This document shows positions 25,615-48,747 of a DNA stretch of 64,000 nt, piece by piece. The stretch's first letter is position 1. Every line of letters begins with the position of its first letter. The stretch spans positions 3,844,001 to 3,908,000 of the forward strand of contig CP014771.1 of assembly GCA_001596155.1 (NCBI GenBank), given 5' to 3'. The notes under the pieces are model-generated. The model had not been told where the DNA came from and did not search any database. It was given only the letters and a program-made list of their open reading frames with translations. The position numbers were made by a program, and so were the translations under genes. The DNA comes from Hymenobacter psoromatis (lineage in GTDB: Bacteria; Bacteroidota; Bacteroidia; Cytophagales; Hymenobacteraceae).

Positions 25615-26434
25615 GAGCGTGAGGACAATTATCGAAGCCAATCTATGGCTGCTGCCATATGCCAAAAAGCCAGAAACGAAACAACGGTTTTTTCATAGCG
25701 CGTTGCCAGTCGTCGGTATTGCTTGAGGCGACCGAAAAACCGCTCTATTTTGTTGCGGTCGCGGTAGGTTTCTTCGTCTATCGAGGCTGGCTCCAGTCGG
25801 TTGGGACGGTTCGGAATGACCGCCTCGATGCCCTGTTGGGCGCAATAAGCGCGGGTTTCATCGCTATCATAAGCCGTGTCAGCCAGTACTTTACCCGGTG
25901 CCAAGTCCGCCAGTAGTGGCAGGGCCTGCGGGCTATCACCGGCCTGGCCTTCAGTGGCTATCAGGCGCACGGCGTTGCCTAAGGCGTCGACGCAGCCGTG
26001 GATTTTGGTGCCGATGCCGCCCCGGCTGCGGCCCAGGCACTCGGTAACGGGGTCGCTTTTTTTTGGCCAGCCGAATGCTGGTGGGCCCGCACGACTGTCG
26101 AATCGAGCATGACCCAGTCCAAATCCGGCGTTTTGACGGCCTCAAATAAGCGGAGCCAGACCCCTTTTTGGGCTAATCGGCGAAAGCGTTTGCAAACGGA
26201 ATTGGTCTTGCCAAAGCGTTCAGGCAAGTCGGCCCACGGACAGCCGGTACGCGCAATCCAGAGTACAGCGTTGAAAAACAAGCGATTATCTGTAGCCGTC
26301 ACGCCACAATCGGTGGCTTTGCCGGAAAGGTGAGGGGCGACCAAGGCCCAAGTGGCATCGGAAACTTCGTGACGGCGCATAAATCAGAAATTAACAACAA
26401 AGATATATTAACCGGCGTTATTGTCCTCACGCCC
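25615..26434 (-). mobile_element. IS5-family (IS427-type) insertion sequence, 820 bp
   Basis: Terminal inverted repeats GAGCGTGAGGACAAT (left) and, reverse complement of the right end, GGGCGTGAGGACAAT bound a single transposase gene in two frames. A TA dinucleotide flanks each end (25613-25614 and 26435-26436), the target duplication expected of the IS427 group. The element appears complete and inserted between the broken RelE-like toxin and an AT-rich segment. Confidence 0.88.
25629..26380 (-). CDS. IS5-family transposase made by -1 frameshift
   Basis: Two open frames: residues from ATG 26380 (MRRHEVSDATWALVAPHLSG, the DUF4096-like N-terminus) to a point near 26060, then the -1 frame to 25629. 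A run of eight A on the coding strand at 26064-26057, after GGCC, is the likely slippery site. The fused product continues SDPVTECLGRSRGGIGTKIH, which is the canonical IS5 transposase sequence. DDE residues fit: D in VMLDSTVVRAH, D in VLADTAYDSDE, and E in NKIERFFGRLKQYRRLATRYEK. Without frameshifting only a 133-residue protein lacking the second catalytic Asp and Glu is made. Confidence 0.88.
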
Positions 26435-28090: not shown

Positions 28091-28133
28091 ACAAAAACGC
28101 CGCCCCACCAACTACCAGTCGGCGGGGCGGCGT
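28091..28133 (-). terminator. Terminator of the NRPS/PKS operon
   Basis: On the minus strand a 10-bp GC-rich stem (ACGCCGCCCC / GGGGCGGCGT, 17-base loop) is followed by TTTTGTTTG. It lies about 20 bp after the phosphopantetheinyl transferase stop, closing the biosynthetic operon. Confidence 0.7.
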
Positions 28134-28153
28134 TGCGTATAAGACGCACTGCA

Positions 28154-28870
28154 TCAGCCCATAAGGCGGGCGTCCAGGCTGCGAAACTGGATAACTGGCT
28201 GCCAGTCGGCAGGGTAGGCCAGCGCGCCGGGGTGGCCCGGAATCAGGCCAAAGTTTTGCACGGTCCACTGGGCAGCGGGGTAGCCATTGGCGGCGGGCCT
28301 AAGGTCCTCATCGCCGAGGCCGAGGCCGCTGGCTTTAGCCCGCGCTTCGAGCTGCGTCCAGATGTGGTAGAAGGCTAGCTGCGGTTCACGGCTCAGGGCC
28401 AGCAGGCGCCGCTCGGGGTCGCTGAAGCGCTGGGCGGCTACGTCGGCAAAGTCAAAATCGGGTATCAGCTGCTCCAGGTCGATGCCGATTTCGCGGGCGG
28501 CCAGCGCCACCACCACCCAGTTGCCCGAGTGCGCCACGTTGAAATGAACGCCGGCCGGCTCGGCCAGCCGGGGCTTGCCGTAGCTGCCAGTTTGCAGGGC
28601 AATGGTAGCCGGCGGCTGCCCCAGGCGCTGCCCCAGCAGGTAGCGCAGGCAGGCGCGCCCCACCCGGAAGCGCAGTTGGTCGGCGGGGCGGACATAGCGC
28701 GCCGCGTGCAGCTGCTCGGCGGGCGTCAGCAGGGCATTCAGGGTGTCCTCACGCTCGGCAAAATCGGCCACCGCGAGGCGATAAACCACCAGGGTATTAG
28801 CCAGCTGCGGGGCCAGGTAGCCAGCATGCACGCTGCTGGAAGAGAGGGGGGTAGGGGGTAGTGGTATCAT
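28154..28870 (-). CDS. Sfp-type 4'-phosphopantetheinyl transferase
   Basis: Protein of 238 residues from the ATG at 28870. It transfers phosphopantetheine from CoA to the conserved serine of carrier domains. Sfp-type motifs: SYGKPRLAEPAGVHFNVAHSG (P1/P2), the Mg-binding IGIDLEQL with Asp and Glu, and FYHIWTQLEARAKASGLGL (the W-T-x-x-E-A-x-x-K helix). It is the last gene of the NRPS/PKS operon, only 4 bp after the 1347-residue synthetase, so it very probably activates the three carrier domains encoded upstream. A terminator follows. Confidence 0.93.
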   Translation of the reverse strand: MIPLPPTPLSSSSVHAGYLAPQLANTLVVYRLAVADFAEREDTLNALLTPAEQLHAARYVRPADQLRFRVGRACLRYLLGQRLGQPPATIALQTGSYGKPRLAEPAGVHFNVAHSGNWVVVALAAREIGIDLEQLIPDFDFADVAAQRFSDPERRLLALSREPQLAFYHIWTQLEARAKASGLGLGDEDLRPAANGYPAAQWTVQNFGLIPGHPGALAYPADWQPVIQFRSLDARLMG

Positions 28871-28874
28871 CAAA

Positions 28875-31800
28875 TTAGCGAGCGGCGGCGTCTAAGCGGG
28901 CTTGTAAAACAATAGCAAATTCCTGGTCGTGGGGCGGGGCAAACATGTAGCTGTGCTCGCCGGGCATCTCGTGAATGGTGATGCCCTCTAGCGCGAGTGG
29001 CTGCCAGCCCAGGAACTCAAAATCAGGCATGTAGAAGGTGCGGTGGCTGGCCCGAAACAGCTCAATGGCCACGGGGGCCGGCACTAAAGAATAGCGGCGC
29101 CAGGCCAGCTCGTTCATCCAGTCGACCAGGGGGGGGTAGCCAAAATTGGGCTGCCACTTACCCTTCAATCCCCACCGGCCCAATAGCCCACCCAACTTAA
29201 ACCACATTTGCTCGCGCTGGTAGGCGATGGTGTGGCCGGGTTGTTTGGCCAGCCGCCCCAGCGTATATACAACTTTCTTAAGCGTTATTAAGCCATTACT
29301 AGCCAAGCGCTTCAGAGGTGGTAAATGATAGTTGGACTGATAAGCATAGGTGTCGAACATGGCCAGGAACCGCACTTCCTTGCCCATCGCCAGCAGCTGC
29401 CTGGCCATTTCGAAGGCAATGAGGCCGCCGAACGAGAAGCCGGCCAATGCATAAGGCCCATCAGGGTTTTGCGCCTGAATGGCCGCCAGGTAGTGCGCGG
29501 CCATGTCCTCGATGCGGTCCAGCGGCTTATCCAAGCCATTCAGGCCCCGCGCCTGCAAACCGTAGATGGGCTGCTCGGTGTCCATATTCCGAGCCAGCGC
29601 GTTGAATAGCAGCACGTTCATGCCCGCGCCGTGCACGATGTAGAGGGGTGTTTTGCTGCCCTTGGGCTTTATCGGCACCAGCGAGTCCCAGGTAATGGCC
29701 TTGCTATTGTCGCGCTGCATCAGCAGGGCCAGCGCGGCCACGGTGGGGTGGGTGAAAAGCGCCGCCAGGGGTAGGCGCTTGCCAGTCACTTTTTCGAGGC
29801 GCGCCATCACCTGCACGGCAATGAGCGAATGGCCGCCGAGGTCAAAAAAGTCGTCAAAAACGCCGACTTCGCTGATTTTCAAGGCCTCGCGCCAGCTGTC
29901 GGCCACCAGATGCTCCACGGTGGTGCGCGGCGCCACGAAGCCCACGGCGGCCGTAATGGTGGCCGCCGGCGCGGCGCGCAGCCGCAGGGCCGGGCGGTTG
30001 GTCTTGCCGTTGGGCAGCAGGGGTAGGGCGTCGAGCACGATAAACTCGCTCGGTACCAGGTGGGTAGGCAAATGCGCATGCAGTGCCAGCTGCCAGCTGG
30101 CGCGCCGGGCCGCCAGCGCCTCGGAAGCAGCCGGGCCATCGAGCACCAGGTACGCCACCAGGCGCTCGTCGCCGGCGGTGCGCTCCTGCGCCACCACCAC
30201 CGCCTGCCGGATGCCGTCGAGGCGGGTGAGGTGGGCCTCAATCTCGCCGGGCTCGATGCGGTGGCCGCGCAGCTTCAGCTGCTCGTCGAGGCGGCCTTGC
30301 AGCTGCACTTCACCGTTGGCGAGCAGCACGGCCGCGTCGCCGGTGCGGTACATGGTAGCCCCGGTAACGGAGGTAAAAGGGTCGGCCACAAAGCGTTCGG
30401 CCGTGAGAGTGGGCCGCTGCCAGTAGCCGCGCGCCACGCCCACACCGCCGATGTAGAGTTCGCCGGCCGTGCCGGGCGCCACGGGCTCGCCCTGCGCATC
30501 CAGCACGTAAAGCTGCGTGTTGGCAATGGGCCGGCCCACGGTAATAACCGCCGCACCGGGCTCGATACGCTGCACCGCCGACCAGATGGTAGTTTCCGTG
30601 GGGCCATACATGTTCCACAGCGCCAGGCACTTGGCCTGAAGACTGCGGGCCAGGGCGAGGGGTAGGGGCTCGCCGCCGCACAGAGCCACCAGCGGCAGGG
30701 GCTTTTCCCAGCCGGCGGCCAGCAGCAGCTGCCAGGTCGAGGGCGTGGCCTGCAACATCGTAATCTGCTCGGCTTCGAGCAGGTGCAGCAAGGCGCGCCC
30801 GTCGCGGGCCGAGTAGGCATCGGCCAGCACCACGGTAGCGCCACTTACCAACGGCAGAAATAATTCCAGCCCGGCAATATCAAACGAAATAGTCGTGATG
30901 GCCAGTAGCTTATCGGCTGCCGTAATACCGGGCGCTTGCTGCATGCTGGTCAGGAAATTGACCACGTTGCGGTGCGTGATGGCCACGCCCTTGGGCTGGC
31001 CCGTTGAGCCCGACGTGTAGAGCACGTAGCACAGGCTGTCGGGGCTGGCAAGGGGGGTAGGGGCCGCGCCCGCCCGCGTGGCGGCTTCGGCGAGCGCCTC
31101 GTCCAGCAGCAGCCGGGGCGGGCCACCGGCCAGGGAAGGCAGGCCGCCCGCCGAAGTCAGCAGCAGGCGGGCTTCCGAGTCGCTTAGCATAAATTCCAGG
31201 CGCTCCGACGGATATGCCGGGTCGAGAGGCAGGTAGGCCGCGCCGCACTTGAGCACCGCCAGCAGCGCCACGAGCAGGCTGGGCACGCGCTCCAGCGCCA
31301 CGGCCACGATGTCGCCGGGCTGTAGCCGGGGCTGCAAATAGGCGGCCAGCTGGTCAGCCTGGCGGTCCAGTTCGGCATACGACAGCTCGGCCTCCCCAAG
31401 CTTGATGGCGGTTTTGGCAGGAGTGGCCAGCGCCTGGGCCGTGAGGAGGGCCGGCAGCGTGGCCGTGGCGGGGTAGGGCGCTTGGGTGGCGTTCAGCCGC
31501 TGGTAGGCTTCGGGCAGGGTAGGCGCGGCCAGGCGCAGGTCGGCGAGCGGCGTGGCCGGCTTGGCGATAATCTGCTCGGCCAGGCGCGTGAAGCCGGCCA
31601 GCAGCCGCTCGATGCGCTCGGGCCGGAACAGGGCCACGTTGTACGAGCATTCCAGCACCAGGTGGTTGCCTGTTCCGCTGGCATTCAGCGACAATTCAAA
31701 ATTCTCGAAAGCCCGCGGGTTGCTGACCAGCTCGTGCGTGAGACCCGCAAACGCTACCCCCTCATCGAAGCCCAGGTCCACGTTGAACAGCACGGCCACC

Positions 31801-32918
31801 AGCGGCAGGTGCCCGGCCTCGCGCCGCAGCGGCAGCTGGGTCAGCAGGTGGCCAAAGGTGAGTTGCTGGTGCTCCAGGGCATCAAACAACTCCGTTTTGC
31901 GGGTGCGCAGGTAATCGTCGAAGTGGCTGGGGCCGCTGGGCCGGCTGCGCAGGGGCAGCAGGTTCACGCAGTGGCCCACCACCGTGCCCAGGCCGGTGGC
32001 CGACTGCCCGGCCGCCGGCAGGCCCACCACCAGGTCGTCTTGCCCGGTCAGCTTGTGCAGCAGCACTTCAAACACCGCCAGCAGCGTGGTCACGAAGCTG
32101 GTGCCCGCCCGCCGGCCCACCGTGCGCAGGCCCGCCACCAGGGCCGGGTCGAGGGAGTAGTCGAGGCGCTGACTTTGGTAGGTGCGCTCGGCAGTGCGCT
32201 CAAAATCAGTGGGTAAGCGCAGCGTCGGGGCACCGTCGCGGAACACCGCCTGCCAGTATTGCTCGGTCTGGCGGTAGGCGGCGCTGGCCTGAAAATCGAT
32301 TTCCTGCTCGGCATACTGGCTGAAGGGCGTGGCAGCCGGCATCCCCGGCTCCCTACCCCCCACCGCCGCCGAGTACAGCTGCCCCAGGTCTTGCAGCAGC
32401 ACGCCCAGCGACCACCCATCGCAGATAATGTGGTGGGCCGTGAGGGTAAAATGAAATTCGCCATCGGCTAATTTCAGCAGGCTAGCCTGCCACAGCGGCC
32501 CCCGCACCAGGTCAAACACGTGCTGCGCCTGCTGGGCCGCGTAGTAGCTCAGCGCCCGCGCCCTCCAGTCAGTGCCGGGCTTGGCGGTGGCCGCGAGGTC
32601 CACGTGTGCCAGGTCCACGGCCAGCTCTTTCGCCACGCACAGCACCGCGCCATCGGCGTTGCACGTGGCGCGCAGGGCCTCGTGGCGCTGGGGCAGCGCC
32701 GCCAGTGCCGCCCGCAGCGCCGCTACCTCCAGTGCGCCGCGCAGGCGCAGCGATACCGATTCGTTATAGGCCCGGCTGGCGTCGTCGCCCCCGAGCTGGC
32801 AGGCCAGCCATATTTCAGCCTGCGATGCCGTGAGCGGCACCAGCAAGGCAATTTCGGCTTGGGCAAAAGGGTCAAAGTCAACCGCCTGAACAGGCGGCGA
32901 AAGAACAGTGGCAGCCAT
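28875..32918 (-). CDS. NRPS module C-A-PCP-TE, predicted glycine-activating
   Basis: Protein of 1347 residues. Condensation domain about 22-460 with HHIICDG at 162-168 (second His and Asp intact); adenylation domain about 480-980 with YTSGSTGQPKG, YGPTET, YRTGD and NGKTNR; peptidyl carrier domain about 1000-1065 with DLGGHSL (Ser1031); thioesterase about 1085-1340 with GFSFGG (Ser1162), Asp1189 and His1322. Reading the substrate pocket by alignment to PheA gives D-I-L-Q-L-G-M-I-W, close to glycine codes I recall. It should accept the intermediate from the 2222-residue protein, add one residue, and release the product. It begins 6 bp after that protein's stop. Confidence 0.93.
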   Translation of the reverse strand: MAATVLSPPVQAVDFDPFAQAEIALLVPLTASQAEIWLACQLGGDDASRAYNESVSLRLRGALEVAALRAALAALPQRHEALRATCNADGAVLCVAKELAVDLAHVDLAATAKPGTDWRARALSYYAAQQAQHVFDLVRGPLWQASLLKLADGEFHFTLTAHHIICDGWSLGVLLQDLGQLYSAAVGGREPGMPAATPFSQYAEQEIDFQASAAYRQTEQYWQAVFRDGAPTLRLPTDFERTAERTYQSQRLDYSLDPALVAGLRTVGRRAGTSFVTTLLAVFEVLLHKLTGQDDLVVGLPAAGQSATGLGTVVGHCVNLLPLRSRPSGPSHFDDYLRTRKTELFDALEHQQLTFGHLLTQLPLRREAGHLPLVAVLFNVDLGFDEGVAFAGLTHELVSNPRAFENFELSLNASGTGNHLVLECSYNVALFRPERIERLLAGFTRLAEQIIAKPATPLADLRLAAPTLPEAYQRLNATQAPYPATATLPALLTAQALATPAKTAIKLGEAELSYAELDRQADQLAAYLQPRLQPGDIVAVALERVPSLLVALLAVLKCGAAYLPLDPAYPSERLEFMLSDSEARLLLTSAGGLPSLAGGPPRLLLDEALAEAATRAGAAPTPLASPDSLCYVLYTSGSTGQPKGVAITHRNVVNFLTSMQQAPGITAADKLLAITTISFDIAGLELFLPLVSGATVVLADAYSARDGRALLHLLEAEQITMLQATPSTWQLLLAAGWEKPLPLVALCGGEPLPLALARSLQAKCLALWNMYGPTETTIWSAVQRIEPGAAVITVGRPIANTQLYVLDAQGEPVAPGTAGELYIGGVGVARGYWQRPTLTAERFVADPFTSVTGATMYRTGDAAVLLANGEVQLQGRLDEQLKLRGHRIEPGEIEAHLTRLDGIRQAVVVAQERTAGDERLVAYLVLDGPAASEALAARRASWQLALHAHLPTHLVPSEFIVLDALPLLPNGKTNRPALRLRAAPAATITAAVGFVAPRTTVEHLVADSWREALKISEVGVFDDFFDLGGHSLIAVQVMARLEKVTGKRLPLAALFTHPTVAALALLMQRDNSKAITWDSLVPIKPKGSKTPLYIVHGAGMNVLLFNALARNMDTEQPIYGLQARGLNGLDKPLDRIEDMAAHYLAAIQAQNPDGPYALAGFSFGGLIAFEMARQLLAMGKEVRFLAMFDTYAYQSNYHLPPLKRLASNGLITLKKVVYTLGRLAKQPGHTIAYQREQMWFKLGGLLGRWGLKGKWQPNFGYPPLVDWMNELAWRRYSLVPAPVAIELFRASHRTFYMPDFEFLGWQPLALEGITIHEMPGEHSYMFAPPHDQEFAIVLQARLDAAAR

Positions 32919-32924
32919 ACTAAA

Positions 32925-35900
32925 TCAGGCTTGAGAAAGTTGCACGTACCGCCCCGGCCGCACGGGGTCGCTCATAAACCAGGCGGGGTTGCCGGCGGCA
33001 TCGCGGCCCAGCCGCGCGCCCGGCGCGGGCGGGCGGTTCAAGGACTGGAGGGCCGTTGGGGATTCCTCAGTGGGCTTGGGCGGGGTGGTGGGGGGTAGGA
33101 AGTCGTCGGCCAGCTCGGCCAGGCTATCCGCAAAGGCCGTCACTATCAGCTGCACGTCGGCCGCCGAGTGGGCTTCGGTGAGAAAACACGGGAAATTGTC
33201 CCAGATATGCACGCCCTTCTCGCGCATCAGCGTGAATAATAAGGTACTATACGGTAATTCGGCAGTAAACCTGATTTTCCAAAGTGAGCCAAAGTACACG
33301 ACTTCCAATGGCACCTGGCGCTGCCGGGCGGCCGAGTTTAAGTCAGCGGCCAGGCGCGCCGTCTGGGCGTTCAGCTGCTCCTGCAAGGCGGGACCCACCG
33401 TTTTCAGGTGGCGCAACGAGGCGTGGGCCGCCGCCAGCGCCAGCGGGTGGCGCACAAACGTGCCCGCGAAATACGTCACGCCCACCTCGGGCACCGAGCG
33501 GTCGCCGTACTGCCAGAAGCCGCCGTCGAGCGCATCCATAAAGGCACTGCTGCCCGTGATGGCCCCAATGGGCAGCCCGCCACCAATGACTTTGCCGTAG
33601 GTGGCCAGGTCGGCGCGCACGCCGAACGCGGCCTGCGCGCCACCCTGGTGCAGCCGGAAGCCGGTAATAATCTCGTCAAAAATGAGGGCCGTGCCCGCGG
33701 CGGCCGTCACGCGGCGCAGCTCACGCAGGAACGCGACGGGCTGAAAATCGGGTCGGCGGCTCTGCACCGGCTCCACCAACACGGCGGCCAGCTCGTGGGC
33801 CCGCTCCGCGATAATGCGCAGACTCTCGTCGGTGCCATAGTCCAGGATGAGCATGTTTTGCACCGCCTCGGGCATAATGCCGGATGCCGCTGGTCGGGTC
33901 TGCAACTGCTTGGTGCCCCGCACAATGCCCTCGTCATTAATGCCGTGGTACGAACCCGTGAAGGCCACCACCAGCGAGCGGCCCGTGACGGTGCGCGCCA
34001 CGCGCAGCGCCCCCAGCACGGCCTCCGAGCCCGTGTTGCAGAGGGCCGCCCGCTGGTGGCCCGTCAGCTCACAAAGCAGCCGGCACACCTCGCCGGCCAG
34101 CGCGTGCTGCGGGCCCACTTCGTAGCCGCGCTCAATCTGCGCGTGCAGGGCAGTTTTAATAAATTCGGGCTGGTGGCCAAACATCGACGAGCCGAAGCCA
34201 TTGAGCGCGTCCACGTACTCGTTGCCATCTAAATCCCAAAGCCGGCTGCCCGCCGAGCGGTCCACCACCAGCGGGTAAGTCAGCTCCTTGAGCAGCGGCG
34301 TGAAGCCCGACACCACGCGCGGGTCGGCCATATGCGGCCGGTGCTCCTGGGCGTAGGCCTTGCTGGCGGCCGTTTTCTGGGTGTAGCGCCGGGTAAATTG
34401 GTTGAGAAATTCCTGCTGCCGGGGCGTGAGCAGGGCCGCCACCTGCCGCTCGATGCGCGCCGTGGCCCCAAAAGGCTTGGCGTGCTCCACGGCCTCGGCC
34501 GCCGTCAGGGCCGGCTTCGGCGCAGCGGGGGGGGGTAGGGCCGGGGCGGCGGGCGGCAGCACCGCGCTGCTTGGGGTCATGCTACCCGTGCCTTGCAATA
34601 GAGCCACTTGCCGCGTCAGCAACTGCAGCTGCGCGGCCAGCAGGCCCAGCGCCGAGTCGGCGGCCGGCTCGGCGAAGGGGGGTAGGGCGGCGGCTGGTGG
34701 AGCAGTGGCGGGCGCGGCCGAATGCGTCGGTTGCGGGGCGGCCTCGGCGGGCAATTGCGCGTCGAGGTAGGCGGCCAGGGCGGCGGGCGTGGCCAGCGTT
34801 TCGTTTAGCTGCCGGAAGGTGATGGGCACGTTGAACGCCTTCTTGAGCGTGAGCGCCAGCTGCGTAAGCAGCAGCGAATCGAGGCCCAATTCCAGGAAGC
34901 TCTGACTGGCCTGCTCGGCCGTCACGTCCACATCAGCAGCATTAGCCAGGACGGCCAGTATTTTTTGTAGCAGTAAAGTTTGACGCATAGGATGGACAGG
35001 TAGAAGCGGAGGAGGCAGAGGAGGAGTAATTTCAGCCGGAGCCGGGGCAGCCGTGGCAGTAGTTACCGGAGTAGTAATGGCCGGCTGCGCCGGCTCTAGC
35101 CAGCAGCGCTGGCGGTCGAAGCAGTAGCCCGGCAGCCGCAGCTTCTGCCGCGGCTGGCCCGCGTAAAAAGCGTGCCAATCGGGTTCCAGGCCACGCAGCC
35201 AGACCTGGCCGAGGGTATTTAAAATGGCTTGATAATCAGTCTGCCCGCTATTGGCCACCGGCAAGCTGGCCAGCGCGCTGTGCGCCGCGCCGCCGGCCGG
35301 CCGGGCCAGCGCCGTGAGCGTGGTGCCCGGCCCCACCTCCAGCAGCAGCGGGCTGGGCTCGGCCAGCAGGGTAGCCAGCGCCGCCGCGAACTGCACGGGC
35401 TGCCGCAGCTGCGCGGCCCAGTAGGCCGGGTCAGTGGCCTGCGCGGCCGTCAGCCAGGTGCCCGTCACGGTCGAAACGATGGGCACTTGCGGGGCCGCCA
35501 GCGGCACCTGCGCCACCACTTCCGCAAAGGCAGCCACCGCCGGCTCCAGCTGCCGCGAGTGAAAAGCGTGGCTGGTGGCTAGCACGCGGCAAGGAATATT
35601 TTGCGCCGCCAGCACGTCGGCAAAGGCGGCGATGTCTGCGGCGGTGCCCGCCACCACTACGGCCTTGGGACCATTCACGGCGGCCACGTCCAGGTTGGGG
35701 GGTAGCAAGTCGGCCACTTGAGCAGCGCTGGCGCGCACGGCCAGCATCTGGCCCGCGGGCAGCTCGCTCACCAGCCGGCCGCGCGCGGCCACCAGCCGCA
35801 GGGCATCGGGCAGGGTGAACACGCCCGCCAGGCAGGCCGCCACCAGCTCGCCGATGCTGTGCCCGCACAGGGCGGTGGGCCGCACGCCCCAGCTTTGCCA

Positions 35901-38900
35901 CAGCCGGGCCAGCGCGTATTCGGTCACGAACAGCGCCGGTTGGGCGTAGCGCGTGTTTTGTAAGAGAATGGCAGCCTGCGCGGCGACTTCCGGCGTCGCA
36001 TCGGGGTAAATAAGTTGGCGAATATCCACATCCAGCCATTCGCCCAGCAGCTCGGCGCACTCGGCCACAGCCGCCCGAAAAGCCGGCTCGTGCTCATGCA
36101 GCTCCCGGCCCATGCCCACGTATTGCGCGCCCTGGCCCGGAAATAGAAAGGCCACGGTAGCCGGCACTTCCGTCACCGTGCGGGCGGCAATGGCCGCCGG
36201 AGTTGGCCCGGCTTGCAGCAGCGCCGCCCGCAGCTCGGGCGCCGAAGCGGCCACCACAAAGCGCCGCTCGGCCAGCGGGGCGCGGGTCGTGTGCAGGGTG
36301 AAAGCCACATCGGCCAGCGCCGGGGTCGGCGCATCGGCCAGCCAGCCAGCCAGGCGCTGGGCATAGGCCGCGCTGCTGCTGGCCGTGCGCGCCGACCACG
36401 CCGCGAGTTGCACGGGGCGGCCCAGCGCCGGGCCAGCTTGGGCGTTTTCGCGGGGGGTAGGGGCTTCCTCCACCACCACGTGCACATTGGTGCCGCCCAC
36501 GCCAAACGAGCTGATGCCCGCCCGGCGCGGTGCCCCGCCAGCCGCCGGCCAGTCGCGCAGCGTCGTATTCACGAAAAATGGACTGTTCGCCAGGTCGAGC
36601 AGCGGGTTGGGCTGGGTGTAGTGCAGTGAGGGCGGCAGCTGCCGGTGCTGCATAGCCAGCACCGTTTTAATAAGGCCCGCCACGCCGGCCGCCGCCGTGA
36701 GGTGGCCCAGGTTGCTCTTAATGGAGCCCAGCGCGCAGGTGCCGCGCCCGGCCGCCGCCCCGAAGGCCAGTCGCAGGCCATCGACCTCAATGGGGTCGCC
36801 GAGGGGGGTAGCGGTGCCGTGCGCTTCCACGTAGCTGATGGTGGCGGGGGCCACCCGCCCATCGGCCAGCGCCTGGCCGATGGCGGCCGCCTGCCCCGCG
36901 GCGCTCGGTGCCGAAAAGCTGCCCTTGTTGCGCCCGTCGTTCGAAATCCCTACCCCCTTGATAACGCCGTAAACTACGTCGCCGTCGCGCTGGGCGGCGG
37001 CCAGGCTCTTGAGCAGCACCGCGCCCGCGCCATCGCTAAACACCGTGCCCCGCGCCTGCGCGTCAAACGGCCGGCAGTGGCCGTCGGGGCTCAGCATGGA
37101 GCCCTCCTGATACAGATAGCCGCTGCGCACGGGGGCCGTGACGCTTACCCCACCCGCCAAGGCTACCTCGCACTGCCCGGTCCGCAGGCTTTGCACGGCC
37201 TGCGCCACGGCCAGCAGCGAGGTCGAGCAGGCCGAATAGACGCTCACCGCCGGGCCACGCAAATCCAGGGTGTAGGCCACGCGCGAAGCCACGTAGTCCT
37301 TCTCGTTTACCGTAATTGCCTGAAAATCACCCAGCTGGTTCACGGCAGCCTGGTTGGGCAGCACATTCTGGATGAAGTAGGAGTTGTTGCCGGTGCCCGC
37401 GAACACGCCCACCCGGCCCGCGAAGTGTGCCGGCAGGTAGCCCGCCTGCTCCAGCGTTTCCCAGGCCACTTCCAAAAATACGCGCTGCTGCGGGTCCATT
37501 GCCGCCGCCAGCTTGGGGTTCAGCCCAAAAAAGGCCGGGTCAAACTCCTCAGCGTGGTCGATGATGCCCCGCGCCCGCACGTAGAGCGGGTCGCGGCGCG
37601 CGGCGGCCGGAAGGCTGGCGTCTAGCTCGTCGTCCGTGAAAAAGCGGGTCGTTTCGCGGCCTTCGCGCAGCACCTCCCACAGCTCATCCACCGAGTTAGC
37701 CCCCGGAAAGCGGCCCGCCATGCCAATAATGGCGATGTCGTTGTTAGTAATAACTTCTTGTTTAACAGGAAGTTCTTGGGTTAAGGGCGCTTGTTTCGCC
37801 AGCACGGGGGTAGGGACCAGCGCGGCCTGTTGGTCCAGGTACGCCGCCGCGCCCGCCACGGTCGGGTGCTGGTAAAGCTTGGTAACGGGCAGCCGGTGGC
37901 CAAAATTCGCCTGGAGTTGGGCCACGCACTTTTGCGCCAGCAGTGAGGTGCCGCCTAGCTCAAAAAAATTATCGGTTGCGCCTACCTTGTCCAGGCGCAG
38001 CAGCGGGGCCCAGGCCGCTGCCAGGTGGCGCTCGGTGGGCGTGCGCGGGGCCTGGTAGGGAGTGCCCAGCGCCGCGCGCGCCTGCGTGGTCGGCGCGGGC
38101 AGCGCCAGCCGGTCAATCTTGCCGCTGCTCGTTTTTGGGAACGCACTGAGCAGCACGAAGGTGGTGGGCAACATATAATCGGGCAGCACCTGGGCCGCCG
38201 CCCGGCGCAGCGCGGCGGGCGTGGCCAGGGCCGCGTTGGTCGATATCAGGTAAGCTACCAGCTCTTTGAGTCCGTTCTCTTCCTGCCACACCGTCACTGC
38301 CACCTGGCTCACGCCGGGCAGGGTAGCCAGCAGGGCTTCCACTTCGCCCAGCTCCACGCGGTGGCCCCGGATTTTCACCTGCCCGTCTTCCCGGCCCAGA
38401 AATTCCAGGTTGCCATCGGGCAGCCAGCGCGCCAGGTCGCCACTACGATACAGCCGCAGCGGTGGTCCGGTGGGCGGAGTCCAGCGAATAAAGTTTTCGG
38501 CGGTGCGGGCCGGCTGGTTCAGATAGCCTTCGGCCAGCGACACCCCGCTAACGCACAACTCGCCCACCTCGCCGGGCGCGGCGAGCTGCTGGTCAGGTGT
38601 GAGCAAGTGAATGACGATATTATCAATGGCCTGGCCGATGGAGGGTAGCCGGGGCCAGCCGGCCGGGTCGCCGCTCAGCACCAGCTGGCTCACCATCACG
38701 CACGTTTCAGTGGGGCCGTATTGGTTGTAGAGCGTACAGCCGGGTAGGGCCGTGAAGAAAGCCACCAGTTGGGGCGTTACTTTCAACTGCTCGCCGCCGG
38801 CCATTATTTCCGTTATGCACTTCGGAAACCGCCCCCGGCTCACGGCCATTTCGGCCAGGTGCTGCAAGGCTACGAAGGGGATGAACAGGCGGTTAACCTG

Positions 38901-39593
38901 CTCCTGCTCAATAAAATCAAGCAGCGCGCCCAGGTCCTGGCGCTGCGCCTCGGTGAGTAGCACCAGCGTGCCGCCCGTGCTGAAAGTAGTCGCCAACTCC
39001 AGAAATGAAGCGTCAAAGCTCAGCGTCGCAAACTGAAGGGTGCGGGTGCCCGGCCCGGCCGCCGACTGCTTGTTCTGCCAGCGCACCAGATTGGTGAGCG
39101 CGGCATGGCCCATCGCCACGCCCTTGGGCTCGCCCGTCGAGCCCGAGGTGTAGAGCACATAAGCCAGCGGGCCGGTTTCAGCCGGGGCCGGAACCGCGGG
39201 GCCGGCGGCAGCCTCGTCGGCGGCCACTAGTTGCAGGCCCAGGCCAGTAAAAAGGTCAGTTTCAGCGGTCGGGGCCAGGCAGCTGGTCAGGCCCGCGTTG
39301 GCAACCATCCGGGCTAGGCGGGCGGGGGGGTAGGCGGGGTCCAGGGGCACGTAGCCCTTGCCGGCCCGCAGAGTAGCCAGCACCCCGACTATCATCTCCA
39401 CGCTGCGCGTGGTGCTGATGCCAATTAATTCTGTATCAGTAAGTTGAGTTAACAGGTAGGATGTCAGCCGGCTTATTTTTTCCTCCAGCTCCCCATAAGT
39501 AATAGTGCGGGAGCCCGCTTTGATGGCAATAGCACCGGGAAATAATCTGCTTTGCTCAAGTAGGTGCTGAACGGTGCGTAGGTTGTTCGACAT
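32925..39593 (-). CDS. Hybrid NRPS/PKS A-PCP-KS-AT-ACP-aminotransferase
   Basis: Protein of 2222 residues, first gene of the operon. Adenylation about 10-500 (YTSGSTGEPKG; pocket D-A-L-F-M-G-Q-V-M, substrate uncertain, hydrophobic likely); carrier Ser550 (ELGGTS); ketosynthase about 616-1042 with Cys789 (YSACSTS), His925 (EAHGT), His964; acyltransferase about 1145-1440 with GHSIGE Ser1246 and HAFH 1342-1345, indicating malonyl-CoA; acyl carrier Ser1573 (LGLDSL); Ala/Pro linker; class III PLP aminotransferase about 1755-2165 with Lys2001 (TYGKVIGGG). No ketoreductase, dehydratase or methyltransferase is present. The aminotransferase is of the type in MycA/ItuA and McyE, which aminate a beta-keto thioester. 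The tail LGRDAAGNPAWF normally leads into a condensation domain, here on the next protein. A 290-bp spacer without a clear promoter match lies upstream. Confidence 0.93.
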   Translation of the reverse strand: MSNNLRTVQHLLEQSRLFPGAIAIKAGSRTITYGELEEKISRLTSYLLTQLTDTELIGISTTRSVEMIVGVLATLRAGKGYVPLDPAYPPARLARMVANAGLTSCLAPTAETDLFTGLGLQLVAADEAAAGPAVPAPAETGPLAYVLYTSGSTGEPKGVAMGHAALTNLVRWQNKQSAAGPGTRTLQFATLSFDASFLELATTFSTGGTLVLLTEAQRQDLGALLDFIEQEQVNRLFIPFVALQHLAEMAVSRGRFPKCITEIMAGGEQLKVTPQLVAFFTALPGCTLYNQYGPTETCVMVSQLVLSGDPAGWPRLPSIGQAIDNIVIHLLTPDQQLAAPGEVGELCVSGVSLAEGYLNQPARTAENFIRWTPPTGPPLRLYRSGDLARWLPDGNLEFLGREDGQVKIRGHRVELGEVEALLATLPGVSQVAVTVWQEENGLKELVAYLISTNAALATPAALRRAAAQVLPDYMLPTTFVLLSAFPKTSSGKIDRLALPAPTTQARAALGTPYQAPRTPTERHLAAAWAPLLRLDKVGATDNFFELGGTSLLAQKCVAQLQANFGHRLPVTKLYQHPTVAGAAAYLDQQAALVPTPVLAKQAPLTQELPVKQEVITNNDIAIIGMAGRFPGANSVDELWEVLREGRETTRFFTDDELDASLPAAARRDPLYVRARGIIDHAEEFDPAFFGLNPKLAAAMDPQQRVFLEVAWETLEQAGYLPAHFAGRVGVFAGTGNNSYFIQNVLPNQAAVNQLGDFQAITVNEKDYVASRVAYTLDLRGPAVSVYSACSTSLLAVAQAVQSLRTGQCEVALAGGVSVTAPVRSGYLYQEGSMLSPDGHCRPFDAQARGTVFSDGAGAVLLKSLAAAQRDGDVVYGVIKGVGISNDGRNKGSFSAPSAAGQAAAIGQALADGRVAPATISYVEAHGTATPLGDPIEVDGLRLAFGAAAGRGTCALGSIKSNLGHLTAAAGVAGLIKTVLAMQHRQLPPSLHYTQPNPLLDLANSPFFVNTTLRDWPAAGGAPRRAGISSFGVGGTNVHVVVEEAPTPRENAQAGPALGRPVQLAAWSARTASSSAAYAQRLAGWLADAPTPALADVAFTLHTTRAPLAERRFVVAASAPELRAALLQAGPTPAAIAARTVTEVPATVAFLFPGQGAQYVGMGRELHEHEPAFRAAVAECAELLGEWLDVDIRQLIYPDATPEVAAQAAILLQNTRYAQPALFVTEYALARLWQSWGVRPTALCGHSIGELVAACLAGVFTLPDALRLVAARGRLVSELPAGQMLAVRASAAQVADLLPPNLDVAAVNGPKAVVVAGTAADIAAFADVLAAQNIPCRVLATSHAFHSRQLEPAVAAFAEVVAQVPLAAPQVPIVSTVTGTWLTAAQATDPAYWAAQLRQPVQFAAALATLLAEPSPLLLEVGPGTTLTALARPAGGAAHSALASLPVANSGQTDYQAILNTLGQVWLRGLEPDWHAFYAGQPRQKLRLPGYCFDRQRCWLEPAQPAITTPVTTATAAPAPAEITPPLPPPLLPVHPMRQTLLLQKILAVLANAADVDVTAEQASQSFLELGLDSLLLTQLALTLKKAFNVPITFRQLNETLATPAALAAYLDAQLPAEAAPQPTHSAAPATAPPAAALPPFAEPAADSALGLLAAQLQLLTRQVALLQGTGSMTPSSAVLPPAAPALPPPAAPKPALTAAEAVEHAKPFGATARIERQVAALLTPRQQEFLNQFTRRYTQKTAASKAYAQEHRPHMADPRVVSGFTPLLKELTYPLVVDRSAGSRLWDLDGNEYVDALNGFGSSMFGHQPEFIKTALHAQIERGYEVGPQHALAGEVCRLLCELTGHQRAALCNTGSEAVLGALRVARTVTGRSLVVAFTGSYHGINDEGIVRGTKQLQTRPAASGIMPEAVQNMLILDYGTDESLRIIAERAHELAAVLVEPVQSRRPDFQPVAFLRELRRVTAAAGTALIFDEIITGFRLHQGGAQAAFGVRADLATYGKVIGGGLPIGAITGSSAFMDALDGGFWQYGDRSVPEVGVTYFAGTFVRHPLALAAAHASLRHLKTVGPALQEQLNAQTARLAADLNSAARQRQVPLEVVYFGSLWKIRFTAELPYSTLLFTLMREKGVHIWDNFPCFLTEAHSAADVQLIVTAFADSLAELADDFLPPTTPPKPTEESPTALQSLNRPPAPGARLGRDAAGNPAWFMSDPVRPGRYVQLSQA

Positions 39594-41768: not shown

Positions 41769-42161
41769 ATGATTTTAGTTGATTCGGACGTATTAATTGA
41801 CGTGTTGCGGAAAGATGTTGTAGCGGAAACCTTGCTTACCAGCCTGAGTAGCGTGGGGCCACTGGGAATCAGCGTGATGTCGCGGATGGAAACCGTTCGC
41901 GGCTGCCTGAATCGAGAGATACAGCAGCGAGCCGAGAAGCTACTGCGCCGCTTCCAGGTGCTAACGCTGGATGCCGCCATCTCACGCCGGGCCGACGAGC
42001 TGGTAACGCGCTATTACCTGAGCCATAATATGGGCGTTGCGGACGCGCTCATTGCCGCTACCGCGCTCGAATATGTTTTGCCGTTAATGAGCAAGAACCA
42101 GCGTGACTATCAATTTCTGCAAACGGAGGGCCTCCAGTTGCTGCCCTACCCCACCGCCTGA
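41769..42161 (+). CDS. PIN-domain toxin (VapC-like)
   Basis: Protein of 130 residues with a PIN ribonuclease fold. Conserved acidic residues: [14 protein letters not shown] (first Asp), SRMETVRG (Glu), [14 protein letters not shown] (Asp), and a C-terminal [10 protein letters not shown] segment with the last Asp. VapC toxins cleave tRNA or rRNA; the target is unknown. Its stop overlaps the ATG of queG as TGATG, so this toxin-antitoxin pair and queG are translationally coupled. Confidence 0.85.
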
Positions 42162-43657: not shown

Positions 43658-44584
43658 CTACAAAAAAAGCATTTTGGGATTGCCAGCCGCCACGAAGTTG
43701 AGGGCAATGACTTTAACGCTGGCGGCATCGAGGGGCTCATCGAAAGCCTCGCTGGCAGCGGCGGGGAGAGCTGGGCTGCCGGTGGGCGCGATGGAATTAG
43801 TCTGCACGTTGAGCTTGACCTGCACCAGGTTGTCCTCGGCGGGGCTATTGACGGTGGTGCCGGCGGCGTAGATGGCGGTGGTGAGCGCCGGGAGCGGGCC
43901 GTTGCTTTCGCGCAGCGACACCCAGCTTTTGGGCAGGCTGTCGTTGGGGCCGCCGCCGTCGGCCCCGGCCACGCCTACCCCCCCCCGACGTAGCGTGCGC
44001 ACGTGCGAGGCGTGCCGCGCCTCCACCGAGTGAATATTAAGCGCCATTTTTAGCACGTCCTTGCTGGGTAGCAGCGTGGCCAGACTGTCTTTGTAAGCGC
44101 GCACTCCCAGGTCTTCGAAGGCTTGTGCTATCGCCAGAAAGCTAGCCAAGCTGGCCGTGGGCGCTGGGCTGACCACGCCGCCCGCCGTGAAGTCGAAGGC
44201 AGCCAGCGTAGGGTCGGCAATGGCGGCGCTGCCCAGCGTGGCCCTGAGGGCAGCGATGTGGCCCTGCTCATCCTGGAGGATGGTTGTAAAAGCGGGCTTG
44301 TCAGCCGTGCTTAAAATGTTGGCGCTCAGGGAGGTCTGGTAGTAGTAATACTCCAGGTATTCCAGGCTCAGCGCCAGGTTCAGGGCGGCAATGATGTCGC
44401 CCGATAAGCCCGTCTGGCCGTAGGCTTTTTGGAAAAGGCCGCTGAGCAGGCCCGGCAACAGGGCGCTCGTAACTGCCTTGCCAGCGGTGCCGAAGTGGCG
44501 AAAAACCCGCCGCCGCGAGTCGAACCGCCCATACACCTCCGAGTCCACCCGTTCCAGGTCCGCGAATAAGTTGAAGAGATTCAT
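43658..44584 (-). CDS. Exported ferritin-like protein, type A (copy 1)
   Basis: Protein of 308 residues of the Ferritin_2 / desiccation-related protein type. The N-terminal part has a twin-arginine-like motif SRRRVFRHFG followed by a hydrophobic stretch and KAYGQ, like a Tat signal set 25 residues in. The four-helix di-iron pattern is complete: LEYLEYYYY, DEQGHIAAL (ExxH), FEDLGVRAY, and VEARHASHVR (ExRH). The C-terminal third has the SEAFDEPLDAASV segment shared with its paralogues. It is the second gene of a B-A pair, 27 bp after its type B partner. Iron or oxidative-stress handling outside the cytoplasm is inferred from the fold. Confidence 0.85.
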   Translation of the reverse strand: MNLFNLFADLERVDSEVYGRFDSRRRVFRHFGTAGKAVTSALLPGLLSGLFQKAYGQTGLSGDIIAALNLALSLEYLEYYYYQTSLSANILSTADKPAFTTILQDEQGHIAALRATLGSAAIADPTLAAFDFTAGGVVSPAPTASLASFLAIAQAFEDLGVRAYKDSLATLLPSKDVLKMALNIHSVEARHASHVRTLRRGGVGVAGADGGGPNDSLPKSWVSLRESNGPLPALTTAIYAAGTTVNSPAEDNLVQVKLNVQTNSIAPTGSPALPAAASEAFDEPLDAASVKVIALNFVAAGNPKMLFL

Positions 44585-44611
44585 AAAGCAGTGATAAGCA
44601 GCCGGATAGAG

Positions 44612-45334
44612 CTAAATTAGCTTGGTGGCGGTGAGCTGGGAGTCGGCGGCTAGATAGGTGTTTAGCTCAACGAGCGCGGCGGTGGGCGTAAGGCTGATTT
44701 CCTGGTGCGAGGTGGCATCAACCACATCAGGACCTGCAAAGTCGTTGGCCAGCAGCAGGTCGCGGATGAGAGCCGCGTGCCGGGCCTCCACCGACACTAT
44801 TTTGCCGACTATGGTGAGGTAGTCGGCCGAGAGCAGGAAGGGGGCCGCGCCGTTGTAGAGATGCACGCCCAGGTCTTCGAGCTGGCGGGCGGCGTTTAGC
44901 ACGCCCAGCTTGCCGGAGCCAGTGGTTGTGGTGCGGTCGTCGAAGCTGATTTTGTCGCTCAGCGTCAGGTTCAGCTGCTTAATAGCGTTGGTGGAAAGGA
45001 TGGTGCGGAAGAAATTGACGTGTATCTGCTCGTGCCGGGCCAGGTCGCTCAGCATCTGATATTCGGCAGAGGTAGGGACCAGGTCAGTATAGTACTTACC
45101 AGTCAGCACGTTGGCATAAAAAGCAGCCTCGACTTGCTCCAGGGCGTAGGCCAGATTCAGCACCCCAATGTTGCCGCTGCCAACGTCGGTTGGGCCGGGG
45201 GTAGCGTTATTTTTGTGGCAGCCCGCCAGCACCAGGGTAGTAGCTCCGACATAAGCCAGAAAGGAGCGCCGCCTGATGGGGGCCAGCAACGGTGACCCGC
45301 CAGGGCCTGCCGTGAGCGGACGAGAAAAAAGCAT
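44612..45334 (-). CDS. Ferritin-like Tat lipoprotein, type B (copy 1)
   Basis: Protein of 240 residues from ATG 45334; a TTG six codons upstream is less likely. The N-terminus holds PIRRRSFLAYVGATTLVLAGC, combining a twin-arginine motif with a lipobox, so the protein is probably exported folded by Tat and then lipidated. The ferritin-like core has ALEQVEAAFY, RHEQIHVNF (ExxH), LEDLGVHLY and VEARHAALI (ExRH), a full set of di-iron ligands. It is first of the third B-A pair in transcription order. Compared with the other two type B copies it has LAYVG where they have FMYAG. Confidence 0.85.
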   Translation of the reverse strand: MLFSRPLTAGPGGSPLLAPIRRRSFLAYVGATTLVLAGCHKNNATPGPTDVGSGNIGVLNLAYALEQVEAAFYANVLTGKYYTDLVPTSAEYQMLSDLARHEQIHVNFFRTILSTNAIKQLNLTLSDKISFDDRTTTTGSGKLGVLNAARQLEDLGVHLYNGAAPFLLSADYLTIVGKIVSVEARHAALIRDLLLANDFAGPDVVDATSHQEISLTPTAALVELNTYLAADSQLTATKLI

Positions 45335-45361
45335 ACTAATTAAATCAAACAATTAGCCAGA

Positions 45362-45456
45362 ATTAAGTAGCAAGTAGCAAGGCCGTAGTAGCTTGATAAT
45401 CAAGCAAATAATCTCAATCTTACTACTTATTACTTTTGTCTTACTACTTAAAACTA
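45362..45456. repeat. Imperfect inverted repeat upstream of ferritin pair 1
   Basis: Left-arm words TTAAGTAGCAAGTAGCAAG pair partly with right-arm CTTACTACTTATTACTT and CTTACTACTTAA. It lies in the 320-bp spacer between two ferritin pairs and could contribute to transcript separation; the rest of the spacer, up to the terminator, has no gene. Confidence 0.45.
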
Positions 45457-45602
45457 CCAACGCCTACGGTCCTATTTCCGGCATGCGCTGGCTACAAAGT
45501 TGGCACTGAAACCACCTGTGGGCATTTGGCCAGCTCATCTTTGCCAAAGAAAATGGGCGATGTGCTCCCTACCCCCACCTTACAGACCAACCTGCCCGGA
45601 AC

Positions 45603-45634
45603 AAAAAAAGGGCAGCCCGGTGAGGCTGCCCTTT
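45603..45634 (-). terminator. Terminator of ferritin pair 2
   Basis: On the minus strand AAAGGGCAGCC / GGCTGCCCTTT (11-bp stem, 6-base loop) is followed by TTTTGTT, 22 bp after the type A stop at 45656. Confidence 0.8.
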
Positions 45635-45655
45635 CAGAATTCTTATTCGCAACAA

Positions 45656-46651
45656 CTAGCCGAAATAGTTACCGGCAACCGAGAACATGTTCGCAATCTT
45701 GGCTACCGAAGTCACGTCCAAGCCTTCATCAAAGGCTTCGCTGAACGCACTGGTGGGGAAGCCGGTGAAGTTAGGGCTGGTCGAAACCGACAGCGCAACG
45801 CCACCCTGCATGGTGTTATCTTCAGCCGGGAAAGTTACGCCAGCAGCCATGCCGAGGGCTGCGCTGGCACCGTAGGTAGCCGTGCCGCTATCATTGCCTT
45901 TGGCGTAGATAGCATCGGTTTTGCCGGGAGCGGCACCGCCGCCATCAACACCCGAAATCCAGCTCTTGGGAGCCATGCTGTAGGGAGCAACCGGAATGCC
46001 CTGCGAAGGAGCGGGCGTGCCGGTGGTGGCCAGCGCACGGCGCATAGCCCGTAGCTGCGACGCATGGCGGGCTTCTACCGAGTGAATGTTCAGGGCCGCG
46101 GTCAGCACCGTTTTGTTGGCCATAACGGCCGTCAGCGGGGCGGCACCTTTGTAGGCCCGCACGCCGGTGTCTTCAAATGACTGGGCGAGCGCGAGGTACA
46201 CGTTCTGGTCGGTGAGCCAGGTAGGGAAGGCACCCTTGGCCGTGTAGTCGAAAGCCGCGGGGGTAGGGTCGGGAATTGGGGTGGCACCCAGCGCCGCAAT
46301 AGTCGTGCGCAGGAACTTGACGTGGTTCGACTCGTCGGTCGTAATCAGCGCCAGCGCGTTGGCGTTGTTCGTGTTGAATATGGCAGTGGGGCGCTGGTTA
46401 TAAAAATACGACTCCAGGTATTCCAGCTTCAAAGCGAAGTTGAGCACATCCGTTGCGGCCATGACAGCAGTGGCATTGGTTTGGGCATATGCCTTGTTGA
46501 AGATGGCACCAACGGCGAGCGGCAGCGCAGCAGCGCTTAACTTCTGGCCCATGCCAGCCATATTTTTGAAGATGGCACGGCGTGAGTCAAGACGGCCATA
46601 TACCTCTGGGTCAACTTTCTCTATCTCGGAAAGGATTTCGAAGAAATTCAT
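45656..46651 (-). CDS. Exported ferritin-like protein, type A (copy 2)
   Basis: Protein of 331 residues with SRRAIFKNMAGMGQKLSAAA as the Tat-like signal region and KAYAQ as the probable cleavage area. Ligand helices: LEYLESYFY, DESNHVKFL (ExxH), FEDTGVRAY and VEARHASQLR (ExRH). The most diverged of the three type A copies: the QG in the DEQGH motif is replaced, and a glycine/serine-rich loop (NDSGTATYGASAALGMAAGV) is inserted in the C-terminal third. The end SEAFDEGLDVTSVAKIA parallels the others. It follows its type B partner by 45 bp. Confidence 0.85.
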   Translation of the reverse strand: MNFFEILSEIEKVDPEVYGRLDSRRAIFKNMAGMGQKLSAAALPLAVGAIFNKAYAQTNATAVMAATDVLNFALKLEYLESYFYNQRPTAIFNTNNANALALITTDESNHVKFLRTTIAALGATPIPDPTPAAFDYTAKGAFPTWLTDQNVYLALAQSFEDTGVRAYKGAAPLTAVMANKTVLTAALNIHSVEARHASQLRAMRRALATTGTPAPSQGIPVAPYSMAPKSWISGVDGGGAAPGKTDAIYAKGNDSGTATYGASAALGMAAGVTFPAEDNTMQGGVALSVSTSPNFTGFPTSAFSEAFDEGLDVTSVAKIANMFSVAGNYFG

Positions 46652-46696
46652 AATAATTGCGAAAAAAAAATGGAGTAAAAGCCGAGATAGGCTTGT

Positions 46697-47470: not shown

Positions 47471-47638
47471 AAGTGAGTGAAAAAAGGAAAATTGAACTGT
47501 TAGCAGAGCTACCGGGCATCTTACGGCTATCAGCACCGTTCAGGTTACTTTGTAATTGAAGTTTTACCGATTTTTTCAATGGCAAATATTTTGCCACTTC
47601 TATTTCTGGAGGGGATAGGAGCCGGATTCCCGGTACGC

Positions 47639-47673
47639 AAAAGCGCCACTCCCCTATACGGAAAGTGGCGCTT
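47639..47673 (-). terminator. Probable terminator of ferritin pair 3
   Basis: On the minus strand AAGCGCCACT / AGTGGCGCTT forms a 10-bp stem and is followed by TTGCG, a weak T-tract. It is 25 bp after the type A stop at 47698, so it probably ends that unit. Confidence 0.55.
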
Positions 47674-47697
47674 GCCTGGATTTTGAGCTTGCTAAAA

Positions 47698-48705: not shown

Positions 48706-48747
48706 GTTAAAATCTAAAGCGTTGAGTTATAAAAAGAAACAGTGGAC

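Follow-up and report, generated by a model that had tools for sequence, protein, structure and literature searches.

What would a cluster of two large synthetase proteins and one small activating enzyme, encoded back to back, be expected to make? The question is raised by a three-gene cassette in Hymenobacter psoromatis, within the window, by which we mean the whole 64,000-nucleotide stretch analysed here (contig CP014771.1, positions 3,844,001 to 3,908,000, in a genome of 5.45 Mb and three contigs). All three genes lie on the minus strand. The first encodes protein 1 (32925..39593, 2222 residues), with adenylation (A), peptidyl carrier (PCP), ketosynthase (KS), acyltransferase (AT), acyl carrier (ACP) and aminotransferase (AMT) domains; the second encodes protein 2 (28875..32918, 1347 residues), with condensation (C), A, PCP and thioesterase (TE) domains; the last encodes an Sfp/HetI-like 4'-phosphopantetheinyl transferase (PPTase; 28154..28873, starting with TTG at 28873 or ATG at 28870). 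We propose that this two-module line of nonribosomal peptide synthetase (NRPS) and polyketide synthase (PKS) type assembles a dipeptide, 3,4-diaminoacyl-glycine, in linear or cyclised form, a reading that we consider likely, if well short of certain, and whose chemical steps, order and mode of release are all drawn from homology.

A predicted line for a 3,4-diaminoacyl-glycine

Pfam recovers the domain order that an initial annotation had read from the letters alone. In protein 1 it places the A domain at residues 13-492, PCP at 524-586, KS at 618-1113, AT at 1149-1459 and a class III aminotransferase at 1773-2130, with a second PP-binding stretch carrying the active Ser1573 between AT and aminotransferase; it reports no ketoreductase, dehydratase or methyltransferase family in protein 1 and no monooxygenase in either protein. 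The first A domain (A1, residues 1-527; 38013..39593) is of the amino-acid type, scoring 365 bits against TIGR01733 (cut-off 317). It is followed by the PCP (37836..38024), the KS with its C-terminal extension (36255..37742), the AT (35217..36149), the ACP around Ser1573 (34794..34961, ends approximate, with an LGLDSL motif) and the pyridoxal phosphate (PLP)-dependent AMT (33093..34430, PF00202). Protein 2 consists of the C domain (31527..32840), a second A domain (A2, 30003..31442), the second PCP (29727..29906) and a type I TE (28884..29648), of which Pfam matched residues 1091-1195 and whose end was set by that of the open reading frame (ORF).

The catalytic residues are intact, as the annotation had held: Cys789, His925 and His964 of the KS, Ser1246 of the AT with its GHS and HAFH motifs, PCP Ser550, ACP Ser1573 and AMT Lys2001 in protein 1, and the HHxxxDG motif of the C domain, PCP Ser1031 and TE Ser1162 and His1322 in protein 2. 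A broken domain, for instance one without the AMT lysine, had been named as grounds for giving up the prediction, and none is broken. Nearly all of these positions are invariant. Among homologues of protein 1 (n=119, those longer than 2100 residues among the best 120 listed), the Cys and two His of the KS, the AT and ACP serines and the AMT Lys and Asp are identical in every one, the PCP serine is present in 118 with one gap, and the first His of HAFH in 117, with R once and Q once. Homologues of protein 2 (n=65, those of 1200-1420 residues among the best 120 listed) all share the C, PCP and TE Ser positions, and 64 share the TE His, the other having a gap. No stop or frameshift interrupts the three genes, and relative to the copy in strain UV11 (Hymenobacter; P0004, G080), our reference for synonymous divergence (dS) and dN/dS, dN/dS is 0.09-0.27 in every part measured. 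The reading frame of the cassette and the purifying selection on it are intact.

The genes are tightly packed. Proteins 1 and 2 are separated by the 6 bp first described, and the 4 bp given for protein 2 and the PPTase gene holds with the ATG start, shrinking to 1 bp with the upstream TTG preferred by the ORF caller. The PPTase carries ACPS and AASDHPPT_N domains above the Pfam cut-offs (PF01648 and PF22624), and its matches to the NCBIfam models HetI and AusB fall below theirs. What had been called a terminator is a terminator-like hairpin 3' of the PPTase gene (28096..28134, minus strand; 18 pairs, 12 of them G-C, then TTTGTTT); the stretch that holds it has two such sites, against 0.7 expected from its own shuffles. 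The C domain of protein 2 is the sole match to the condensation family in the whole genome. Because of the tight three-gene layout, the hairpin, the near-invariant catalytic residues and the low dN/dS, the cassette is more than a chance arrangement.

How might such a line work? A1 would load an alpha-amino acid onto the first PCP, KS and AT would add one malonyl-derived C2 unit to give a gamma-amino-beta-ketoacyl-ACP, and the AMT, using PLP, would replace the beta-ketone by an amine. The C domain of protein 2 would then join the diamino chain to glycine loaded by A2, and the TE would release it as an acid or a ring, the carriers having presumably been activated by the PPTase. This is essentially the sequence of extension, amination, condensation and release first put forward, and it is still the best reading that homology offers. 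The HAFH motif of the AT denotes malonyl-CoA specificity. The AMT is, as annotated, of class III and MycA type: its best match in the PDB is mycosubtilin synthase A (MycA; 6kfu/6kfm), aligned over residues 1722-2167 with 411 bits, against 172 bits at best for the next solved group, the glutamate-1-semialdehyde aminomutases, and the AMT region is 46.7% identical to that of BamA. By Pfam, KS, AT, ACP and AMT follow one another in a single chain, as in the beta-aminating PKS module of MycA and of ItuA and BamA of the iturins, in which a homologous AMT aminates the beta-ketoacyl-ACP, as is predicted here. The MycA AMT passes its chain to a C domain. It aminates an ACP-bound beta-ketothioester with glutamine as the donor, according to PMC3870968.

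The domain order, the intact sites, the malonyl-type AT motif, the lack of a ketoreductase and the closeness of the AMT to MycA together make a beta-amino (3,4-diamino) acyl unit the best reading. Statine and the dolaproine/detoxin-type units arise from an amino acid and one malonyl unit, the ketone being reduced to a hydroxyl by a ketoreductase; the line in the window shares the malonyl extension of an amino acid with them, but its ketone should become an amine, and no ketoreductase follows its KS and AT. The annotation had taken this to exclude a statine. The observation stands, and we would call a statine unlikely rather than excluded.

Residue 2, which had been left open, is probably glycine, because the A2 pocket is of the glycine type in the window and in 59 of the 65 close relatives. 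(In the codes of both A domains the final K is appended rather than read; K517, read separately, is K throughout.) The window's A2 code is DILQLGMIWK, which we take to denote glycine, and those 59 read DILQLG[MLV][IV]WK; the remaining six comprise two with one further difference, two ending in YK, one reading DILQLGQYQK in a doubtful register and one whose tail was unread. Codes of this type also stand behind the AMT in several, though by no means every one, of the loci from Pseudomonadota, Myxococcota (present in L073, absent in L079) and Planctomycetota (L111 and L113). The expected product would have a computed [M+H]+ of 232.166 with a leucine starter or 216.134 with proline, in each case 18.011 less if cyclised.

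Exchange of the first adenylation domain

Which amino acid starts the chain is complicated by the history of A1. In trees, residues 1-527 of protein 1 cluster with P0008 and residues 560-2160 with P0002-P0006, each with support of 100/99, and topologies that move either part to the position of the other are rejected (approximately unbiased test, 18 rows, p 6e-13 and 8e-31, values that flatter the result in that the groups were named after earlier comparisons of the same data). The best single breakpoint falls after residue 527, with 400 of 490 informative sites in agreement. Independently of the trees, A1 stands out in its dS relative to the UV11 copy, 0.864, compared with 0.32 in the KS, 0.36 in the AT and 0.31 in the AMT, and with 0.27, 0.39 and 0.48 in the C, A2 and TE domains of protein 2. 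Given the conflicting trees and the dS excess, we conclude that recombination brought in the window's first A domain, with a breakpoint close to the A/PCP boundary; since dS is still raised in residues 528-615 (0.67), the true junction may be located beyond this estimate, as far along as the KS.

The pocket changed along with the domain. The family default for A1 is DVQF[MI]AQV[VI]K, found in 101 of 119 homologues; the window reads DALFMGQVMK, a code otherwise present only in P0008 (two of 119, the window included), which differs from DVQFMAQVVK by V236A, Q239L, A301G and V331M. D235, expected in alpha-amino-acid pockets, is present. For family default and window alike, TycB1 is the best match to the pocket region among solved structures; we take it to be a proline module, and it reads D-V-Q-S-I-A-H-V-V in the alignment used to check the register (K517 falls outside the aligned stretch); codes of the form DVQF[IV]AHVVK occur in the A1 of L079, L109 and L112. 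The default starter is probably proline-like. For the window itself, proline, which 101 of 119 relatives and the TycB1 match would suggest, was not adopted, because of the nine pocket places read the window shares two with TycB1 and the family default six. The swapped domain probably takes another residue, perhaps a bulkier hydrophobic one. No characterised A domain with the code DALFMGQVMK was found.

Could that residue be leucine? The product would then be 3-amino-deoxystatyl-glycine, the compound type first annotated, and it might inhibit proteases. This is a special case of the 3,4-diaminoacyl-glycine reading, with which its odds overlap, and in this full form we regard it as a small chance. 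A leucine starter is possible. The window pocket has lost residues that give the family its proline-like look and has become more hydrophobic, and the D-A...G..V-M-K frame also occurs in one published leucine code; the best solved match of the region is nevertheless TycB1, and a dipeptide ending in glycine is short for aspartic protease inhibition, a function the annotation had raised and for which this analysis gives no support. The 3,4-diamino unit thus survives from the original prediction as the best reading, and the name 3-amino-deoxystatine would be literal only with leucine at A1, which no data show. Among the openly licensed papers searched, a single one contains aminodeoxystatine in any of five spellings, and there it is the title of a 1988 synthesis cited among the references.

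Relatives of the cassette and a possible self-release

The annotation implied that such a cluster is rare. Searching genomes with the AMT region (E <= 1e-80) instead finds it in 22 of 120 Hymenobacter genomes, counting that of the window, with none in other genera of the same family (22 of 204 genomes overall); an even sample of 395 Bacteroidota genomes yields 18 carriers, again with the window's among them. Thirteen of these 18 are at least 59% identical, 12 of them in frames of 2176-2269 residues and one (G352) in a frame of 3451; the other five are 42-52% identical, in frames of 1804-4384 residues. A scan of named genomes confirmed at least 573 relatives, of which the best 80 were kept. The named relatives include Hymenobacter, Spirosoma, Larkinella, Pedobacter, Mucilaginibacter, Parapedobacter, Maribacter, Winogradskyella and Gelidibacter and, further afield, Lysobacterales, Burkholderiales, Myxococcota and Nostoc, among others. 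With domains called by BLAST using the window's own, a complete A-T-KS-AT-T-AMT frame (T, carrier domain) occurs in 56 of these 80 loci, with C-A-T-TE directly next in 31 of the 56 and then a PPTase in 16 of the 31; of the 25 complete loci without a direct C-A-T-TE, 24 adjoin another NRPS protein and one, L094, adjoins none. The remaining 24 of the 80 are cut by contig ends, split, fused, in another order or unrecognised (L091). Fused forms are seen in L055 and P0086, and L044 has a methyltransferase inside A2. The window has the layout of the family, a protein of about 2200 residues and then one of about 1340 with a glycine-type A2, and the cassette is widespread in Bacteroidota rather than a one-off.

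Several copies have unusual settings or states. Plasmid pSLIN02 of Spirosoma linguale (L126, 9160-16533), a mobilizable plasmid, carries protein 1 with a GNAT acetyltransferase gene about 7 kb from copper-resistance genes. In G118 (C1:1636159-1637711) the AMT region lies in two pieces and two frames (1386 and 294 residues), so that this copy looks broken or misassembled. AMT-containing NRPS/PKS relatives sit on large plasmids of Rhizobium, Sinorhizobium and Agrobacterium (50 plasmid records overall, 14 of Agrobacterium and 11 of Rhizobium); those of Rhizobium and Sinorhizobium are about 48% identical among the matches listed, which include none from Agrobacterium.

The layout has also been in print since 2013. 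In Table 2 of PMC3870968, Pedobacter heparinus C6XWU5 is given as A-CP-KS-AT-CP-PLP1 with a predicted Nrp-Mal-Gly-Pk product, the same layout as protein 1 and the same predicted second residue as ours; the row leaves its first A domain unpredicted and, as a table row only, comes without product, mechanism or neighbourhood. The same source lists A-CP-KS-AT-CP-PLP1 in Thiorhodococcus drewsii as the start of a longer protein. NRPS-PKS hybrids make up 6.7-17% of clusters in surveys of Pedobacter and Flavobacteriaceae, and the cassette is not described in the available parts of those surveys (PMC12181424, PMC10734526). We found no characterised product for this layout in the openly licensed literature, a search that did not cover MIBiG.

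Among characterised systems, MycA differs at both ends. It starts with a fatty-acyl ligase, whereas the line in the window starts with an amino-acid A domain, and it continues in cis into a longer peptide line (PMC4219810), whereas here a single C-A-PCP-TE module stands on the next protein. The iturin family as a whole has the fatty-acyl start and a seven-residue line; the window has an amino-acid A1, one further NRPS module and no other C domain in the genome. McyE of microcystin synthesis has a PKS module, an aminotransferase and then an NRPS module, and McyE- and PuwE-type modules are built on phenylpropanoid or fatty-acid chains, unlike the line in the window. PuwE of puwainaphycin synthesis has the same order as the window (PMC4219810). 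It also has a monooxygenase, and with none in the window proteins a 2-hydroxy-3-amino unit of the microginin/puwainaphycin kind is not indicated. In sum, the architecture has been published as one line of a table, with no characterised product attached, and its amino-acid start and short, TE-ended line set it apart from MycA.

The two proteins lie side by side in many genomes, and in the window a PPTase is the last gene; a C domain lies beside the AMT in 21 of the 22 Hymenobacter genomes. Several observations weigh against the diaminoacyl-glycine reading. In the one exception, G058 (L117), no C-A-PCP-TE gene stands between the PPTase and protein 1, and the only C domain, in a frame of 1385 residues at C1:1641849, is about 1.6 Mb from protein 1. 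On pSLIN02, the plasmid being searched and the chromosome not, no C domain was found anywhere beside protein 1. Because both keep protein 1 apart from a C domain, it may on occasion work without its partner, protein 2. The A2 codes are Val-like in all six fused proteins and proline-like in L039, L041 and L063, and the window's own A1 code is a rare one, present in two of 119 homologues.

The separated copies would fit a different ending, in which, before condensation, the gamma-amine attacks the thioester and frees the chain by closing a five-membered ring. Without prior action of the AMT this ring would be a tetramic acid, after it a 4-amino-pyrrolidin-2-one, and protein 2 would be dispensable or serve a second product. 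General chemistry gives a gamma-amino thioester the geometry for such a closure, and protein 1 stands 1.6 Mb from protein 2 in G058 and beside a GNAT gene on the S. linguale plasmid. Yet the 31 complete loci with protein 2 directly next, and the 24 of 25 others that adjoin another NRPS protein, argue for a partner, as do the fused single-chain forms (P0086 and L055) and the retention of the C and TE Ser residues in all 65 homologues, and of the TE His in all but the one with a gap. Self-release thus seems unlikely to us, and condensation with glycine remains the reading that we prefer.

Neighbourhood and surface polysaccharides

The cassette lies near queG and a ruvB-like gene (the latter recognised by eye) in the window and likewise in the Hymenobacter genomes G080, G058 and G094. 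Between these two genes, the window has a VapC-like PIN-domain gene (41769-42161, plus strand), with relatives in L117 and L124, and at 43658-49572 (minus strand; stretch viewed to 50000) there are six tandem paralogous ORFs, of which two were scanned and both are Ferritin_2; relatives of these ORFs also flank the cassette in L124, with five, and in L117, with one at the cut end. An IS4/5-family transposase (25629-26380, minus strand), split into two ORFs whose frames differ (DUF4096 and DDE_Tnp), lies 1.8 kb downstream of the PPTase gene.

Elsewhere in Bacteroidota the surroundings often differ. Of 20 hand-picked flanking proteins, 11 belong to polysaccharide synthesis (glycosyltransferases, Wzx-type flippases, export and chain-length proteins, FdtA, a branching enzyme, a sugar transferase and a GDP-mannose dehydratase); the other nine include a response regulator, a methyltransferase, a cupin, an oxidoreductase, an AAA_31 protein and four without a family. 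In L036, L041, L046, L049, L053, L054, L056, L057 and L058 the related cassette stands amid genes for exopolysaccharide or capsule. For a count, we took 29 of the 37 loci L036-L072, leaving out four of Hymenobacter (L037, which is from the G019 genome, L038, L047 and L052) and four on short contigs (L040, L043, L048 and L055). The initiating sugar transferase PF02397 (Bac_transf) lies within 50 kb of the cassette in at least 14 of the 29 genomes against 2.43 expected, a count reached in none of a million simulations, and PF02563 (Poly_export) in at least six against 1.97 (p 0.012); the control PF00266 does so in at least three against 2.8, with a fourth match 50.8 kb off by start coordinates. 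The observed counts are lower bounds (90 of the 126 Bac_transf matches of these genomes are listed), whereas every match of PF02397 and PF02563 entered the expected counts and, for PF00266, the 150 listed out of 492. The p values err on the small side, because genomes of one genus are not independent: the 14 include three of Pedobacter and two each of Mucilaginibacter, Larkinella, Parapedobacter and Maribacter, and all six Poly_export genomes are among them.

Because the cassette lies near capsule and exopolysaccharide genes unusually often outside Hymenobacter (14 of 29 against 2.4), the product may there be part of a surface glycan or regulate one. That the product is, at least in these Bacteroidota, a building block, substituent or regulator of surface polysaccharide nevertheless strikes us as improbable. 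The 11 flanking proteins and the PF02397 and PF02563 excess, not shared by the control, speak for it, but nine of the 20 flanking proteins lack such a function or a family, and exopolysaccharide loci are variable islands that collect unrelated genes. For the window itself we rejected the link: within 50 kb, in 18 of the 22 AMT-bearing Hymenobacter genomes and among the matches listed, PF02397 occurs in none (1.3 expected) and PF02563 in one (0.97 expected), and the window's neighbours are the ruvB-like, QueG, HIRAN, PIN and ferritin-like genes. An NRPS-PKS cluster of Flavobacterium/Chitinophaga said to be needed for fungal suppression, as cited in PMC13211072, was considered for a link to the cassette and not used. 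Finally, a silent or decaying locus is very improbable: a split transposase lies downstream, and searches for the AMT region came up empty in 98 of the 120 Hymenobacter genomes and gave two pieces in G118, but the three genes of the window have neither stops nor frameshifts, their checked sites are intact and their dN/dS is low.

Having predicted a product, the next question is what it would mean. A search of openly licensed papers turned up no characterised assembly line for a vicinal 3,4-diamino acid; should the prediction be borne out, the cassette would encode such a line, testable with two proteins and a PPTase, from a family common in an under-explored phylum. The exchange of A1 is a natural experiment, in which a domain was swapped between relatives with the rest of the line unchanged and under selection, and its breakpoint near the A/PCP boundary is what enzyme engineers seek. 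It is tempting to speculate, although we hold this to be a long shot, that the family is a portable line for cationic vicinal-diamino acyl-glycine units attached to or controlling surface polysaccharides, with its starter retuned by A1 exchange, and that in Hymenobacter, off the glycan locus, the product is a free small molecule. The exopolysaccharide link in other genera offers a testable idea of function.

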